From Methylovulum sp. (GTDB lineage Bacteria > Pseudomonadota > Gammaproteobacteria > Methylococcales > Methylomonadaceae), in contig JAURZI010000035.1 of the NCBI GenBank assembly GCA_030653435.1, positions 62,001 to 126,000 on the forward strand: a stretch of 64,000 bases of DNA, given 5' to 3'. Each line of letters opens with the position of its first letter. The stretch's first letter is position 1. The translations under genes were made by a program, and so were the position numbers. The notes beneath the pieces are model-generated. The model ran no database searches and was not told the DNA's origin. It saw only the letters and a program-made list of their open reading frames with translations. This document shows positions 6,977 through 14,749 of this stretch, piece after piece.

Positions 6977-7891
6977 ATGCTTAAACAGAAGGCAGTTAGT
7001 TTCCAAATAGTCTTGAATGCTTGCTTAGCCCTTGCCGCAACAGGGACGCTTGCTGACCCTGGCGCGCTAAATGCGGCCGTTAAAACGGGCAGCCAAGCAA
7101 CCATAAATCTAGCCCTGTCTAAGCAAAAAGACAGTGCGCTCCGCCTAGAGGTCAGGCACGCAGCGTTAGGCGCCGTGCTTAAAGCAATAGCGGACAAGAC
7201 CGGCGCGGTCATCCATTATTCCGTATTGCCTGAAGAACCGGTTACCGCCACCTGCGTGGGTGCAACGGTTAAACAGGTCATGGAATGTGTGCTCGGAGCC
7301 CGGGTTGACCGCGTTTACCGGAACATGGCCGGCAAATCCGCCGATAAAGGGCATGCAAACACCGCCCTTCAGAAGGAAGAAATCTGGATATTAGGTACGC
7401 GCTATGGAGATTCCGGCAGCAGCATGAACTGCACGCTCGATGCCGGCAGCGCAACAGTGGATGGCACAAGTAAAGCGCGGGAACAGGACGCGCAAACTGC
7501 ATTGTTGCGGATGGCGCAACTTGCTGAAGACGGCCCCATGGCAGAGCTACGCAAACAAGCTTTGTCAATGTTGGCGGCAGGTGGCAAAACCGGCAATCCC
7601 GAAACCGATGCAGAAATCGCAGCAACCTTGGAAGATGCCTTTAAAAATAAAGATGCTGAAGTCCGGGTGCAGGCCGTGTTCGGTCTTGCCCAGCAAGACG
7701 GTGACAATACTGAAGTTTTACGCGCCGCCCTGCAAGATGACAATTCCGATGTGCGCTTAATGGCTGTGGAGAGCGCAAAGAACGACAGCCCGCAGGGTCG
7801 GGCCATTTTGACTGAAGCGTTAAACGATGAAGACGGTACCGTCCGTGCCTTGGCAGGGCAGCGGCTAGGCGTGGAAGCCGATGGGCAATAA
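6977..7891 (+). CDS. Exported STN-domain plus HEAT-repeat protein
   Basis: 304 residues with an N-terminal signal peptide (hydrophobic core about 8-24, then TLADPGAL). Residues about 50-115 (LRLEVRHAALGAVLKAIADKTG..VTATCVGATVKQVMECVLG) read as an STN domain, the short periplasmic domain at the N-terminus of secretins and TonB-dependent receptors. A linker follows, and residues about 190-300 contain two or three HEAT-like repeats (DAEVRVQAVFGLAQ, NSDVRLMAVESAK, DGTVRALAGQRLG). No catalytic motif is visible. It is likely a periplasmic scaffold or adaptor. It begins a run of exported proteins on the same strand and is followed by a strong hairpin. Confidence 0.7.
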   Translation: MLKQKAVSFQIVLNACLALAATGTLADPGALNAAVKTGSQATINLALSKQKDSALRLEVRHAALGAVLKAIADKTGAVIHYSVLPEEPVTATCVGATVKQVMECVLGARVDRVYRNMAGKSADKGHANTALQKEEIWILGTRYGDSGSSMNCTLDAGSATVDGTSKAREQDAQTALLRMAQLAEDGPMAELRKQALSMLAAGGKTGNPETDAEIAATLEDAFKNKDAEVRVQAVFGLAQQDGDNTEVLRAALQDDNSDVRLMAVESAKNDSPQGRAILTEALNDEDGTVRALAGQRLGVEADGQ

Positions 7892-8122: not shown

Positions 8123-8614
8123 ATGAGAACGACATTTGCATTATTGGCTATGGCAATATCCGTTGCCCTGGCATCCACGGCGTTTGCCGGGGTTATCAAA
8201 CCGTTGCATACCTGCGCTTCGGGAACCTTCAGTTTCCCGTCACCTAACACATCCTCCACACACACGGCGGATTGTCCGGCCGGGACGACCTATTTTGAGG
8301 CGCAAGTCAGGGACAGGGCGCCCAACAATGCCAGTACGGTATTAAACATCCAAGTTATTAAGAGCCCGACTAACGGCCCTGTCAGGGCGGATGCCACGGA
8401 TGGCGATGGTAGCACCAGCCTATGCACATTGACGGGGTTTAGTGGCTATTCACGCGTTAGCGGCGGTTCCGGCACGTATACGGTACAAATCACTAAGACC
8501 GGAGGGACTGACTCTGAAGATTATGATGTGAGCCACCACTGTATCAAGGTTGAGTCCAATGGAACCTTGACCGACATGAACGGCAGCCTTTCGACACCGC
8601 CGGTGCAACAGTAA
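8123..8614 (+). CDS. Secreted protein with IKPLH mature N-terminus, paralogue 1
   Basis: 163 residues from ATG 8123, chosen for the AGGAG at 8110-8114; an earlier in-frame start at 8078 lacks one. A clear signal peptide ends ALASTAFA, and the mature protein starts GVIKPLHTC. The mature part holds four cysteines (HTC, ADC, SLC, HHC), enough for two disulfides, and a Ser/Thr/Gly-rich beta-type sequence. It shares the AG-x-IKPLH start and the late CIKV block with the next two genes but is otherwise diverged. I do not recognise the family. It is likely periplasmic or released. Confidence 0.7.
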   Translation: MRTTFALLAMAISVALASTAFAGVIKPLHTCASGTFSFPSPNTSSTHTADCPAGTTYFEAQVRDRAPNNASTVLNIQVIKSPTNGPVRADATDGDGSTSLCTLTGFSGYSRVSGGSGTYTVQITKTGGTDSEDYDVSHHCIKVESNGTLTDMNGSLSTPPVQQ

Positions 8615-8632
8615 CCATTTTTTTGTATCAAA

Positions 8633-8652
8633 TGCCGTTTATAGGAACGGCA
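8633..8652 (+). promoter_or_regulatory. Leader hairpin before second IKPLH gene
   Basis: TGCCGTT (8633-8639) and AACGGCA (8646-8652) form a perfect 7-bp stem with a 6-nt loop, six bases before AGGAG (8659-8663). It may act on translation or mRNA stability, or terminate transcription from the gene before. Confidence 0.45.
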
Positions 8653-8671
8653 CTATTTAGGAGTTTGGATT

Positions 8672-9187
8672 ATGTGCATTAAATTATCAATTTTTGCCGT
8701 CTCTTTGACAGCGCTTATGGCTGCTTCAGCGTATGCCGGGGATATTAAGCCTTTACATGGTGTTGCGGGCAGCCTTGGGAATGGTGAAGATGCCACTGAT
8801 ATCATCAGGTTTAGCTGTGGGACGCTGGAAGGCGTGACGGTAGACCATGCTTTTGCCACCATCCAGGATCTGGATCCAGTGCAAAAGCCGGAGTTAAACA
8901 TAAAGATTGCGGCCTGGACGGGCAGCCATTGCGGTTCGTTTTCCACCGCAGAACCCGATACTGTCGATGACGATGGCTTGGCCGGTGCTGAAGTGGAAGT
9001 TGGCATGCCGGCCGTGGGCGGCCAGTTTTGCTTAAAAGTGTTTAAAAAGCCCGGTCGGCAAAACGGCGCCACGGGACATAAAACGGCTTATGGCGCGGAA
9101 AACTATGAAATCGACACGGGCTGCGGGCAAGAAGGCCTTGAAGAGCATGCCGAGCCGATTTTTGACGCTTATATCAAAAACCAATAA
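8672..9187 (+). CDS. Secreted protein with IKPLH mature N-terminus, paralogue 2
   Basis: 171 residues, ATG 8672 with AGGAG at 8659-8663. The signal peptide ends AASAYA and the mature chain begins GDIKPLHGVAGSLG. Four mature cysteines (FSC, SHC, QFC, TGC) are spaced as in paralogue 3. Shared blocks with paralogue 3 are VDHA, IQDLDPV, VDDDG, QNGATG, GAENYE and a C-terminal YIKNQ. The pair arose by tandem duplication that included the downstream spacer. Family and function are unknown; the disulfide-ready, acidic, exported form suggests an extracytoplasmic binding or structural protein. Confidence 0.75.
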   Translation: MCIKLSIFAVSLTALMAASAYAGDIKPLHGVAGSLGNGEDATDIIRFSCGTLEGVTVDHAFATIQDLDPVQKPELNIKIAAWTGSHCGSFSTAEPDTVDDDGLAGAEVEVGMPAVGGQFCLKVFKKPGRQNGATGHKTAYGAENYEIDTGCGQEGLEEHAEPIFDAYIKNQ

Positions 9188-9287
9188 GCCATAGTCTGGC
9201 TCGCGGTTGTTTGTCCGTCCTGGCGTCCATCGGGGCGGGCGGCATCGTTCCGGGGTAATCCCGCACGGGTTATTTTTATATCAAAAT

Positions 9288-9305
9288 GCCGCTAATGTCG
9301 GCGGC
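9288..9305 (+). promoter_or_regulatory. Leader hairpin before third IKPLH gene
   Basis: GCCGC (9288-9292) pairs with GCGGC (9301-9305), eight bases before AGGAG (9314-9318). The flanks (TATCAAAATGCC and ATTATTTAGGAG) match those of paralogue 2, so the leader was duplicated with the gene. Confidence 0.4.
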
Positions 9306-9326
9306 GATTATTTAGGAGCTTTTACT

Positions 9327-9839
9327 ATGAAAATCAAATTAGCCGCACTGGCGGCATTTTTATCGGCGCTCATCGCTACTGCCGCTGTTGCTGGAGATAT
9401 TAAGCCCTTACACGGTGGCATTGCGGGCAGTCTTGGCGCCAACCCGCTGGCCGAGGATATTGTCCTGTATACCTGTGGCAAGCTGCCAGGTTTGACTATC
9501 GACCATGCGGCGGCAGCTATCCAAGATCTGGATCCTGTCGCAAAACCGCGATTGACTGTGCGGATAGCCAAATGGAGTGGGAGTGTTTGCGGTGTATTTG
9601 CAGCCGCCGCAGGCGACCCCGTTGATGATGACGGGATTCCTGGCGCTGAAGCGGTAAAACCCTTACTGGGCGGTAATTATTGCATCAAGATAAACAAAAC
9701 GGCGGCTAAACAAAACGGAGCGACAGGCCCTAAGTCCGCGAACGGGGCGGAAAATTATGAGTTGGACACGCATTGCCTACAACAAGGCGTTGAAGAGCAT
9801 GCCGCCTCCACCTTTGTCCGTTATATCAAAAATCAATAA
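9327..9839 (+). CDS. Secreted protein with IKPLH mature N-terminus, paralogue 3
   Basis: 170 residues from ATG 9327, after AGGAG at 9314-9318; the longer frame from 9207 has no ribosome binding site and runs through the duplicated spacer. The signal peptide ends TAAVA and the mature chain starts GDIKPLHGGIAGSLG. Four cysteines (YTC, SVC, NYC, THC) and the blocks IQDLDPV, VDDDG, QNGATG, GAENYE and YIKNQ align with paralogue 2 along the whole length. The downstream spacer (9840-9893) resembles the spacer after paralogue 2 (9188-9240). Function unknown. The large outer-membrane protein gene follows and may be its partner. Confidence 0.75.
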   Translation: MKIKLAALAAFLSALIATAAVAGDIKPLHGGIAGSLGANPLAEDIVLYTCGKLPGLTIDHAAAAIQDLDPVAKPRLTVRIAKWSGSVCGVFAAAAGDPVDDDGIPGAEAVKPLLGGNYCIKINKTAAKQNGATGPKSANGAENYELDTHCLQQGVEEHAASTFVRYIKNQ

Positions 9840-9962: not shown

Positions 9963-12764
9963 ATGAAATTGATTAAGCCTTACTACCTGTGCCTATTGCC
10001 CATTATCGGTAATTTTCGCTCCCGGCATCCCGCCAAGCTGGCTTTAACTCATGATAGCCCGGCATGTATTGTCAATTCCCCACTCGCCGCTTTAACTGCC
10101 GCGGCCCTGGTCTTGCCCGGCTTGTTGCCGAATTTTGCAGAAGCAGCCCAGGAAGACGGCGTGGATTTCCAGTATAGCCACTACCAGGAAGGCAAGCGGG
10201 ATATCTATGGCATGGTGAACCATGACCATTCGTTTTTAACGCCCACTATTGCGTCGAAATTACCGCAAAACCTTAAGCCTATTGAAGTAGACAGTGTGCA
10301 TGGCAGCGGGCGCGTCAGCCTGACTGAGTGCGTTAAGTTCGCTTTCAATTACACGCAAGACACCTGGTCCGGCGCAACGCCGATAGGTACTGCACCCGTT
10401 GTTAGCGGGGTCAACCGCCCCACAGGCAGCGTTGACAAATCCTTTGCTATCACCCAAATCACCGGCGCATCGCCGATCATAGGCCAGGGCGCGGGAATGT
10501 CATCCATTTTTACCAATAATAATCAAAGCCGTATTTATCAATATGTTTATGATTCAGTCACTAAAAAATATGTGCCCGGCGATATGAATAACCAGTTGGT
10601 CCATGTCCTGTCCTATGCCTCGCCGGAAACGCGCAAGCAAGGCGATTTTAAACTGGGATATGAGTGGGACGAAGCGGTGCTGGATGCGGGTGGCGGCATT
10701 TCGATAGAAAACGATTACGAATCCCGTTTTGGTAACTTGGGCGGACGGCTGGACTTTAACCAAAAACAAACCACCGTCAATTGGGGGCTCAGTTACACCA
10801 ACAGCGACACTTTCGCGACCCTGGATCCCGATGCTTTGCCTTTTATCGATACCAGTTTATACGATAATTCTTCGCTTAAGTTGGTAAGAATCAATCAATT
10901 TAACGAAGAGGTATACCGGGAAGTCCCTAAGCAAAGCCAGGCCCCGGCAGGGGAGGTCGATAGCACCTACCCGTTGCTAGGGCCTACGGGCAGAACCCGC
11001 AGCTCATCGATATTGCACGGCAACCGTCAAGACTGGGGCAGTCAGTTAGGGCTGACCCAGGTCCTGAACAAAAACGCTCTGCTGGCACTTGACCTAGGCT
11101 ATACCCGCAGCACCGGTTATCAGGCCAATCCTTATAAAGTCGTTTTTGTCTACAGCCTGCCCGCCAAAATGGATGCCGATACGCTTTATGCAGTAAAAGG
11201 CACGGCATTTCTCGAAACCCGTCCGGCTGAACGCAACCAGCTGAACTGGCACATAGGCTATGACCACTACCTGGAACCTATAGAGGCCGCCCTGCATTTC
11301 GACTACCATTTTGCCCATGACGACTGGGGCATTAATGCCCATACCTTTGAAGCCGATTGGGTGCAGCCATTAGGCGCGGACTGGGCGGTCACACCCCGCA
11401 TTCGCTACTATTCCCAGTCAAAAGCGCATTTTTACACGACTGGCGTATTCACCGGAGAAAAATTCGATAGCGTCAATTTCCCAAAATATTATTCCAGCGA
11501 CCAGCGCCTGTCAGGTTTCGGCGCCTTAAGCGGCGGGGTCACCGTCAGCAAACAATTTGCCAAAGGCATCAGCCTGGAAACCGGTTTTGAGTATTACACC
11601 CACCAAGGCGGTTTAAAGCTGGGCGGGGGCGGCGAGCAGGCTTTTGCCGATTATGATTTTTGGGTCGCCAATGCCGCGCTCAAGATTAATCTGGACGCGT
11701 TGAACGCTGGCGGCGGCGGTCATGACGGACATACGCGGCATCCCCATCATAGCAATGCCCCGGCAGGGATAATGTTCGACCATGTTTTGCCCAAGTCCGG
11801 TTTCATGGTGGCTTACCGCTATTTGCGTAGCGAACAGGCAGGTGCCCTGCTATTCGGTGACCAGCCAGTGGGCATAGACAGGGCGCGTGCAAAGGGTTGC
11901 GGACACAAGCCTTGTGCAGTCACGCCCGATTTTATGGCGATGAACATGCACATGCTGGATTTGATGGCGGCGCCCACCGATAGGCTGACCTTAATGCTGA
12001 TGCCGCAGTGGATGGATATGGACATGACGATGACGGCTAACCCGAATGCGCGGCTTACCGGCGGCCATAGCGGCCATAGTTCAGCACACGGCCACCAAAC
12101 CGGCGGCCTCGGTGATCTGGGCCTATATGCCTTGTTTAAAGTCTTGGACCAGTCGAACCATAGCCTCATCTTAAGCTTAGGTGGCACTGCGCCCACCGGC
12201 GCTGTCGATATTACTCTACGCAAAACCGGCACGACCCCCGTCGATAACCAACCCCTGCATTACGGCATGCAGCTAGGCAGCGGCACCTGGGATTTCAAGC
12301 CCAGCCTGACCTATGCCGGGGAGGCGGGGCCATTCGTTTGGGGTGCACAAGTGACCGGTACGTTACGCCTGGAAGGACGCAATGAGTCAGGCTTTGCCTT
12401 TGGCGATATTATTCAGGGCAGTATGTGGGGCGGTTACCACTGGACGAATTGGCTGGCAAGCACCGTGCGCGGCGTTTATACGGGGCAGGACCGGATTCAC
12501 GGCGCTTATCCGCCCAGCACAGCGGTAGACCCTACCACGGGGCGACGTTTTGTCCCGCAACACGTCGGCCCCTTCGACTTCCCTGACAATTACGGCGGCC
12601 AGTTTGTCGATTTAGGCTTAGGGCTAAACGTTACCATCCCAGACGGTGCATGGGTCGGCAACAGCCTTAAGTTTGAATGGCTGCAACCCGTCCACACCGA
12701 CTACAACGGCTACCAGCTCGATCGTGACGGGGGGTTGTCGTTTACCTGGAGCGCGGGCTTTTAA
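9963..12764 (+). CDS. Large outer-membrane beta-barrel protein: DUF3570-like domain fused to a second transporter-like barrel
   Basis: 933 residues. A hydrophobic stretch at about 38-60 (LAALTAAALVLPGLLPNFAEAA) is the likely signal, preceded by an unusually long N-terminal region. Residues about 65-580 read as a DUF3570 protein (VDFQYSHYQEGKRDIYG, VDSVHGSGRVSLTECVKFAFNYTQDTWSGATP). After a His/Gly linker (GGGGHDGHTRHPHHSN) a second barrel begins (FMVAYRYLRSE..) that resembles the phenol-degradation/MetA-type transporter family. It has a Met-rich strand (MAMNMHMLDLM, MPQWMDMDMTM) and a His-rich loop (GGHSGHSSAHGH). Both halves end in alternating barrel strands and the chain ends in Phe. The His/Met clusters suggest metal, perhaps copper, binding; this is inference. 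A DUF4266-like lipoprotein follows, the usual DUF3570 neighbour. Confidence 0.7.
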   Translation: MKLIKPYYLCLLPIIGNFRSRHPAKLALTHDSPACIVNSPLAALTAAALVLPGLLPNFAEAAQEDGVDFQYSHYQEGKRDIYGMVNHDHSFLTPTIASKLPQNLKPIEVDSVHGSGRVSLTECVKFAFNYTQDTWSGATPIGTAPVVSGVNRPTGSVDKSFAITQITGASPIIGQGAGMSSIFTNNNQSRIYQYVYDSVTKKYVPGDMNNQLVHVLSYASPETRKQGDFKLGYEWDEAVLDAGGGISIENDYESRFGNLGGRLDFNQKQTTVNWGLSYTNSDTFATLDPDALPFIDTSLYDNSSLKLVRINQFNEEVYREVPKQSQAPAGEVDSTYPLLGPTGRTRSSSILHGNRQDWGSQLGLTQVLNKNALLALDLGYTRSTGYQANPYKVVFVYSLPAKMDADTLYAVKGTAFLETRPAERNQLNWHIGYDHYLEPIEAALHFDYHFAHDDWGINAHTFEADWVQPLGADWAVTPRIRYYSQSKAHFYTTGVFTGEKFDSVNFPKYYSSDQRLSGFGALSGGVTVSKQFAKGISLETGFEYYTHQGGLKLGGGGEQAFADYDFWVANAALKINLDALNAGGGGHDGHTRHPHHSNAPAGIMFDHVLPKSGFMVAYRYLRSEQAGALLFGDQPVGIDRARAKGCGHKPCAVTPDFMAMNMHMLDLMAAPTDRLTLMLMPQWMDMDMTMTANPNARLTGGHSGHSSAHGHQTGGLGDLGLYALFKVLDQSNHSLILSLGGTAPTGAVDITLRKTGTTPVDNQPLHYGMQLGSGTWDFKPSLTYAGEAGPFVWGAQVTGTLRLEGRNESGFAFGDIIQGSMWGGYHWTNWLASTVRGVYTGQDRIHGAYPPSTAVDPTTGRRFVPQHVGPFDFPDNYGGQFVDLGLGLNVTIPDGAWVGNSLKFEWLQPVHTDYNGYQLDRDGGLSFTWSAGF

Positions 12765-12789: not shown

Positions 12790-13014
12790 ATGGCTATGTT
12801 CAGACTAAAACCTATTGTAACTTTGTTGGCGCTGTCCTTATGCCTTGCGGCCTGCACCCCGGTGCAACCCTGGGAGCGCGGCCATCTGGCTAAGCCGCAG
12901 ATGGCCTTAGACCCTTATCCCTTGCAAAGCATGTTGCGGGCCCATAACTACGGTAGCCGGGAGGCGTTGTCAGGCGGCAATGCGGCACAGGGGGGCGGTT
13001 GTGGGTGTTATTAA
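12790..13014 (+). CDS. DUF4266-like small lipoprotein
   Basis: 74 residues, ATG 12790, 25 bp after the outer-membrane protein gene. A lipoprotein signal ends LCLAAC with the lipidated Cys at 22. The mature part, PVQPWERGHLAKPQMALD, then SREALSGGNAAQGGGCGCY, matches the DUF4266 pattern of a WERG-LAKP-M start and a Gly-rich end with a CGC tail. The family usually accompanies DUF3570 proteins, often with thioredoxin-like and ApbE-like genes, which are absent here. It is probably anchored in the outer membrane as an accessory of the preceding barrel. Confidence 0.75.
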   Translation: MAMFRLKPIVTLLALSLCLAACTPVQPWERGHLAKPQMALDPYPLQSMLRAHNYGSREALSGGNAAQGGGCGCY

Positions 13015-13330: not shown

Positions 13331-14749
13331 ATGAAAGCAGATTTAATTAAAGTCTTTATTTTGGTCCTTACGACAGGGCAAGAATTCTCACCTCATTGGG
13401 CAATAGCCGCCCAAAATGTCGATTATCCCCTCGCCAAGGAGGTTCGCAATGATGCCCGCTTTGTTGCCAACCAACTGATAATACAATATAAGCCGCGCTT
13501 TAATGTTGCGAGTACCAGGCAACTACGCATCATTCCAGCGCAGACAGCGCGGATGCAAGTGCTGGTGAGCGGACTTAAACGCCACGACGGCAAGGGCGAC
13601 CTTGCGTTAGCAAGCCTTAGCTCTGGGGGCGGCACGCTTAAGCAAATGACCCGACTCATCCAACAAGTCCAAAAGGATCCCGACGTTGAGTTTGCCGAAC
13701 CTAACTGGAGACTTCATCATTTGGCTGGCCGCGCTACACCAGCTTTTCCCAACGATAAATATTATCAAAACGGGGACTTATGGGGGATGTACGGCGACAT
13801 GGGCGAGCCAGCAAATCCTTATGGCTCGCAAGCGGCGGAAGTCTGGGGAAACCGCGCCCAGCCCATTGATTGTAGCGATGTGTATATCGGTATCGTTGAC
13901 GAAGGGGTTATGTTTTCCCATCCTGACCTTAACGCGAGCGTTTGGCGTAATCCGTTCGATCCCCTGGACGGTATCGATAATGATGGCAATGGCTATGTGG
14001 ATGACCGTAACGGCTGGGATTTTTATCATGACGACAGGACGGTATACGATAGTCCTGCCGATATTCACGGCACCCATGTGGCAGGGATTATTGCCGCAGC
14101 AGGCAACAACGGTAAAGGCATTGCTGGTGTTTGCTGGAAAGCAAAGCTAATTGCCGCCAAGTTTATGGACTTCGATGGCGGCGATACGGTTAACGCCATT
14201 AAGGCTATCGATTATATTACCGACCTTAAGGCCCGGCATAAACTCAATATTGTCGCCACCAACAATTCTTGGGGCGGCGGCGGTTATTCAAAAAGCATGC
14301 GTGATGCCATTAAACGGGCGCAGATGGAAAATATTTTATTCGTTGCAGCCGCGGGAAACAGCGCCAACGATAACGACGCCCATCCGCTTTTTCCTGCCAG
14401 TTACGGCAATAGCGCTATTGTTGCCGTGGCGGCGTTGACATCGGTCGGGCGTATGGCGTATTTCTCCAATTTCGGCAAAACCACGGTGGATATCGCCGCG
14501 CCGGGTGACGGTATCCTTTCCACGGTTCCAGGCTTAACCGGGGAGCCAGCTTATGCTTTCGATTTTGGCACATCTATGGCAGCGCCCTTCGTGACCGGCG
14601 CTATTGCTTTGTATGCCCATCAGCATCCTGGCAGTAAAGCGGCTGCTATTAAAAAGGCTTTATTAACCGGTGCAGAACCGACGCCCGGTTTCGTGGGCAG
14701 CACGACGTCAGGCGGACGGCTTGATGTACCTGCTATGTTAATGCGTTAG
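13331..14749 (+). CDS. Exported subtilisin-family (S8) serine protease
   Basis: 472 residues from ATG 13331, with AGGA eight bases upstream. An N-terminal hydrophobic segment ends near WAIAA, then an inhibitor I9-like propeptide region (about 40-130: VANQLIIQYKP, DPDVEFAEPNW) precedes the catalytic domain. The triad is readable: Asp190 in GIVDEGV (family norm DSG/DTG), His246 in HGTHVAG, Ser415 in GTSMAAP; the oxyanion Asn is N343 in AAGNS. An acidic calcium-loop-like run (GIDNDGNGYVDDRNGWD) is also present. It should be secreted and self-processing. It follows the IKPLH and outer-membrane genes and is flanked by inverted repeats. Confidence 0.9.
   Translation: MKADLIKVFILVLTTGQEFSPHWAIAAQNVDYPLAKEVRNDARFVANQLIIQYKPRFNVASTRQLRIIPAQTARMQVLVSGLKRHDGKGDLALASLSSGGGTLKQMTRLIQQVQKDPDVEFAEPNWRLHHLAGRATPAFPNDKYYQNGDLWGMYGDMGEPANPYGSQAAEVWGNRAQPIDCSDVYIGIVDEGVMFSHPDLNASVWRNPFDPLDGIDNDGNGYVDDRNGWDFYHDDRTVYDSPADIHGTHVAGIIAAAGNNGKGIAGVCWKAKLIAAKFMDFDGGDTVNAIKAIDYITDLKARHKLNIVATNNSWGGGGYSKSMRDAIKRAQMENILFVAAAGNSANDNDAHPLFPASYGNSAIVAVAALTSVGRMAYFSNFGKTTVDIAAPGDGILSTVPGLTGEPAYAFDFGTSMAAPFVTGAIALYAHQHPGSKAAAIKKALLTGAEPTPGFVGSTTSGGRLDVPAMLMR

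Follow-up and report, generated by a model that had tools for sequence, protein, structure and literature searches.

Small exported proteins with a candidate N-terminal-histidine metal site are encoded alongside the DUF3570 flavinylation system

Results

Three tandem genes belong to an undescribed exported family

Three neighbouring genes in a 64,000-nucleotide stretch of DNA (hereafter the window) encode P1, P2 and P3, distant paralogues, as judged from their sequences, within one undescribed family of exported proteins of about 150 residues. Sequence and gene order firmly support the tie of this new family to the DUF3570 flavinylation system. Beyond that tie, we infer metal binding, the identity of the metal and electron transfer: our preferred reading, to which we give roughly an even chance, is that the family is a secreted metal-carrying (probably copper) partner of a DUF3570 flavin/thiol electron-transfer system.

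Each of the three genes is preceded by an AGGAG-type ribosome site. The plus-strand open reading frames confirm a first-pass annotation in encoding exported proteins with an AG[VD]IKPLH start and four mature cysteines each; the signal peptides end in AFA, AYA or AVA. The end-to-end alignment of P2 with P3 also holds, at 58% identity. P1 had been said to share no more than the start and a late CIKV stretch, which proved wrong: P1 aligns with P3 over its length (24% identity; pairwise E 8e-4). In the alignment, C140 of P1's CIKV falls opposite C150 of P3, in the HC near the C-terminus, and not opposite P3's CIKI (C119), so the CIKV/CIKI likeness is out of register. Moreover, a profile built solely from homologues outside the window matches P3 (3e-16), P1 (1e-14) and P2 (7e-12), which establishes homology rather than chance. 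The four-cysteine pattern is true of each trio protein and does not extend family-wide, where only two cysteines, presumably disulfide-bonded, are invariant; the other pair is confined to the trio's subgroup. The suggestion that no named family covers the trio was borne out, as sequence searches of Pfam (E 0.1, 43 members), NCBIfam and the PDB gave no family match at useful E-values.

The IKPLH start fared differently. Profile searches found numerous homologues in which it is not kept, an outcome that the first-pass annotation had itself named as refuting its idea, and we rejected IKPLH both as a motif of the family and as a sorting tag. Outside the trio, a single variant was seen, IKPRH, in the nearest relative, which belongs to another genus (AADIKPRHGG). 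By alignment, the conserved element within IKPLH is the histidine, which coincides exactly with the family's mature His1 site in P2 and lies no more than one residue from it in P1 and P3; the preceding GxIKPL is a local extension. In the trio this histidine is the seventh residue after the predicted cut, so it does not sit at the exact N-terminus. The first-pass annotation was right that the mature N-terminus matters; its proposal of a recognition or attachment signal is unsupported, and we put in its place a reading of the histidine as a metal ligand, since it co-varies with two distant ones.

With a first profile, 25 of 101 relatives had the family in tandem; with an improved profile, it was detected in 88 of 201 genomes of the order, covering 32 of 48 genera. 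Its genes are often arranged as tandem pairs or trios. The window's genome carries a second trio on contig C32, in a sister cluster where TlpA and ApbE adjoin DUF3570. A narrow-alignment search of genome contigs returned six loci, in MAGs deposited as Methylovulum, Methylobacter, Methylomonas and uncultured Methylococcaceae. These names, together with a CuMMO subunit encoded in the window's own genome (PF02461, 1.4e-130), point to a methanotrophic host.

Family loci encode the DUF3570 flavinylation system

Within 8 kb of family genes at 70 loci, we found DUF3570 (59 loci), a DUF4266-like CxC protein (59), TlpA (53), a second exported family that we call Secr (48), ApbE (43), an STN-HEAT protein (41) and a membrane spermidine-synthase-like protein (23); these counts are lower bounds, several contigs ending early. 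DsbD is present in one cluster (L054). According to PMC8238504, experiments have shown that ApbE flavinylates DUF3570 at [ST]GA[ST] motifs, and DUF3570 clusters with ApbE, thioredoxin, DUF4266 and DsbD; the authors there call the purpose of this flavinylation uncertain. In many relatives the STN-HEAT homologue lies immediately 5' of the family genes.

The window's DUF3570 protein carries two such motifs, SGAT at 136 and TGAS at 167. Its C-terminal part is rich in methionine and histidine, with 15 Met and 18 His beyond residue 560, and its last residue is Phe. This half (MHMLDLM...MLMPQWMDMDMTM...GGHSGHSSAHGH) matched no Pfam model and looks like a separate metal-binding barrel. DUF4266 is present beside the window trio, where no ApbE or TlpA homologue was found; ApbE is encoded on contigs C32 and C6 of the same genome. 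We considered whether the small proteins might themselves be flavinylated, at the [ST]GA[ST]-like xxGATDYY, and rejected this by inspection, the T often being V or I. The subtilase was likewise rejected as a conserved component of the system, occurring at one of the 70 loci, that of the window. A third DUF3570 locus of the window's genome (L143, on contig C43), which has no family members, holds TlpA, a short DUF3570 protein of 462 aa and a further protein of 634 aa, matched by the TlpA profile and perhaps DsbD-like.

Table 1. Positions of the window genes and of selected features at other loci (an arrow marks the predicted signal-peptide cut)
Feature	Position	Strand	Properties
Exported protein with HEAT repeats	6977..7891	+	HEAT_2 2.3e-13; N-terminal part read as secretin/STN-like
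P1, family member	8123..8614	+	163 aa; AFA↓GVIKPLH; retains the His of IKPLH and of HHC, lacks the third
P2, family member	8672..9187	+	171 aa; AYA↓GDIKPLH; Gly in place of the second His, third His present
P3, family member	9327..9839	+	170 aa; AVA↓GDIKPLH; all three His (H29, H149, H158)
Outer-membrane-type DUF3570 protein	9963..12764	+	DUF3570 (PF12094) 1.9e-111
DUF4266 lipoprotein	12790..13014	+	PF14086 2e-20; C-terminal GGGCGCY
Subtilase (S8)	13331..14749	+	PF00082 3.4e-49; directly 3' of the cluster
Secr examples	L007 11635-14459; A5; L142 7696-8802
CxxCH-bearing members	L049 841-2781; L054 9389-10090; L060 8536-9375		N-terminal CxxCH haem motif; none of the three His
Third DUF3570 locus of the window's genome	L143 7148-11110

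Secr is itself an undescribed exported N-terminal-His family, of about 250-350 residues, with the mature start HT[GR] and a nearly invariant H22-G-C24. It gave no Pfam match and no sequence match to PDB chains. The 'HGC' had raised the suspicion of a DUF1775/YcnI protein; a profile search gave no support, and PF07987 (YcnI/DUF1775) was unmatched by either family at E 0.1. In L142 (G029) the two families are fused as one open reading frame.

Three co-varying histidines point to a probable metal site

In most family members, the mature chain opens with a histidine right after the AxA signal-peptide site (e.g. AAAA↓HDINGALG); by inspection, nearly all His-type members show AxA↓H, and the window trio does not. 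An N-terminal His after AxA was counted in 50 of 80 family members and in 27 of 33 Secr proteins (whose starts were placed using His1, with one candidate of at least 240 residues failing, a 5'-truncated ORF), versus 1 of 115 other signal-peptide-like ORFs at the same loci. Two further histidines complete a triad, one in an HC near the C-terminus and one in xHTGT. Across 111 domains, 69 have all three, 31 have none and 11 are mixed. In the group with none, only the three histidine columns stand at 0%; C46 and C128 remain at 100%, D40 at 87% and Y108 at 94%. The Asp residues at 40, 63 and 87 are conserved and persist in the His-less members. Pairwise association of the histidines (phi 0.82-0.90) compares with a maximum of 0.50-0.65 across 1000 simulations of independent evolution on the tree, and for each pair 0 of 1000 simulations reached the observed value. 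Well-supported branches of the poorly resolved tree give about three independent co-loss pairs, three for and none against, which is not significant. Four loci (L098, L100, L110 and L111) have His-less members with two tandem family domains, which adjoin a single-domain His member.

Co-variation of the N-terminal histidine with two distant ones points to metal ligation, and we consider a transition-metal site in the family likely. Copper is our best guess for the metal, with an even chance of being right, because of the analogy with histidine-brace proteins, the Met/His-rich DUF3570 and the copper monooxygenase link given below. Nickel or iron is a possible alternative; published N-terminal-His proteins bind nickel besides copper (PMC12537917). 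P3 retains the whole triad and P1 and P2 two histidines each. On sequence, the trio is a branch that is atypical for the family and partly degenerate. It is the weakest case for our preferred reading: P3 alone has the full triad, no histidine lies at the exact N-terminus, and the cluster lacks ApbE and TlpA.

CxxCH-bearing members accompany short DUF3570, and the family co-occurs with copper monooxygenase

The CxxCH-bearing members (Table 1) occur at the only three family loci with a short DUF3570 (425-465 aa), which lacks the Met/His-rich C-terminal half. The other 56 family loci with a DUF3570 all encode a long version of 839-1052 aa, whose C-terminal part is rich in Met and His, and each of them has one or more His-bearing members. 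The association of short DUF3570 with CxxCH-bearing, His-less members gives a Fisher p of 3e-5, loci being counted regardless of relatedness. Such a swap of haem for metal, together with a short DUF3570, is what would be expected if the family carries a redox metal.

A class-wide draw of 369 genomes contained the family in four, all four with a CuMMO subunit, which was found in 11 of the 369 (p 4e-7); outside the order, CuMMO was present in both family genomes (G483 and G631) versus 7 of 365 (p 3e-4), figures that reflect few events and count genomes regardless of phylogeny. The complete Secr-family-TlpA-DUF4266-DUF3570-ApbE arrangement is present in G631. There are also genomes that encode CuMMO and lack the family.

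The predicted fold is a PPC-type beta-sandwich

AlphaFold2 models built with family alignments reached a mean pLDDT of 83.8 for P3, predicted to be a beta-sandwich, and of 88.1 for a His1-type paralogue. Structure comparisons gave VIA Z values of 8.7-10.9 to Tk-SP, ColG, ColH and the B. anthracis PPC domain, including 10.9 to the jelly-roll domain of Tk-SP (3afg; 100 residues, 2.3 Å) and 9.7 to the collagen-binding domain of ColG (1nqj; 91 residues, 2.4 Å). Calpain C2-like domains and CBM35 were further matches. The models therefore predict a PPC/collagen-binding-type beta-sandwich for the family; at E 0.1, the Pfam PPC models found no sequence match among the 43 members. LPMO, CopC and YcnI chains were not near the top of the VIA-align and Foldseek lists, an absence that excludes nothing.

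The fold bears on two other readings, both of which we hold to be unlikely. The small proteins could be N-terminal-His copper enzymes, akin to the LPMO-type oxygenases or peroxygenases, that draw electrons from flavinylated DUF3570 and act catalytically on an unspecified substrate rather than carry metal. The N-terminal His with its two companions and the dedicated electron-transfer gene set alongside would fit, and oxygenases are found among the histidine-brace proteins (PMC10952591). Against such enzymes stand the predicted PPC-like fold and the lack of sequence similarity to solved structures, LPMOs included, and the haem-bearing and His-less paralogues are easier to reconcile with a carrier than with a fixed enzyme. 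With a similarly small chance, the family could consist of secreted structural or adhesive beta-sandwiches of the PPC or carbohydrate-binding type, in which the conserved Asp loops would hold calcium and the histidines would be incidental. That would account for the matches to PPC, collagen-binding, C2-like and CBM35 domains and for the persistence of Asp 40, 63 and 87 in His-less members, but it leaves unexplained the joint loss of three histidines while fold residues are kept, their placement at the N-terminus, the tie to DUF3570, TlpA and ApbE, and the second N-terminal-His family at the same loci.

Discussion

If the family is the metal-carrying partner that we favour, ApbE, encoded elsewhere in the window's genome, would flavinylate DUF3570, to which a periplasmic thioredoxin and the CxC lipoprotein DUF4266 would supply electrons. 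In the small proteins, the N-terminal His and two further histidines would form a histidine-brace-like site for a transition metal, copper being the most likely, and electrons or metal would pass between these proteins, the flavin and DUF3570's Met/His-rich half. The system would thereby reduce, and perhaps take up, copper at the cell surface for the copper-dependent methane oxidiser. His-less paralogues, often encoded between two His paralogues, may be structural partners. In the window's GxIKPL-His proteins, either the site works without a free amino group or the extension is later removed. That IKPLH marks a pro-sequence boundary at which the window's subtilase cuts off GxIKPL and exposes an N-terminal His, an addition to the favoured explanation, is improbable: the histidine sits at the family's His1 place and the protease gene lies in the window cluster, but that gene was seen at just one of the 70 loci, and in the nearest relative (IKPRH) the residue at the supposed cleavage point is Arg.

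Carried further, the metal-carrier reading leads to a proposal that we hold only tentatively: a flavin-driven extracellular copper-reduction and acquisition system in methanotrophs and other copper-monooxygenase bacteria, in which two new secreted N-terminal-His families would supply a flavinylated outer-membrane protein, itself rich in Met and His, with copper and electrons, and a haem version would replace the copper version in some lineages. The loci are a testable candidate for how methanotrophs without methanobactin gather and reduce copper for methane monooxygenase, and equally for the purpose of DUF3570 flavinylation. This type of locus offers two exported families, both undescribed, for which an N-terminal-His metal site is predicted, together with an exchange of haem for metal within one gene cluster.

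The gene context of MopE and CorA is unlike that of the family. What they share with it is that they are methanotroph proteins tied to copper and either secreted or located at the surface (PMC3423442, PMC3912023); the family and Secr differ from them in having no sequence match to PDB chains. With the PPC/collagen-binding domain (ColG 1nqd and 1nqj, Tk-SP 3afg), the predicted fold is common ground, whereas the family is a stand-alone exported domain with three conserved histidines and an identity of only about 10-21%.

The clusters described in passages of PMC8238504 have the same four neighbours as the family loci (DUF3570, ApbE, thioredoxin and DUF4266), and L054 shares DsbD as well. Those passages describe no small N-terminal-His partners, the main text does not bring in copper or methanotrophs, and DUF3570 at the family loci mostly has an extra Met/His-rich half, unlike in the clusters presented there. 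The N-terminal-His metal proteins, among them YcnI/DUF1775, CopC, PmoF PCuAC, LPMOs, DUF4198, DUF6702 and the anglerases (PMC8424229, PMC12537917), differ from the family in that it has no Pfam or PDB sequence match, matches PPC-like folds and has a metal site that is predicted. Like the family, they are exported, begin the mature chain with His (as most family members do by inspection) and carry conserved potential ligands downstream, and several of them (PMC8424229, PMC12537917) are beta-sandwiches, as is the fold predicted here.
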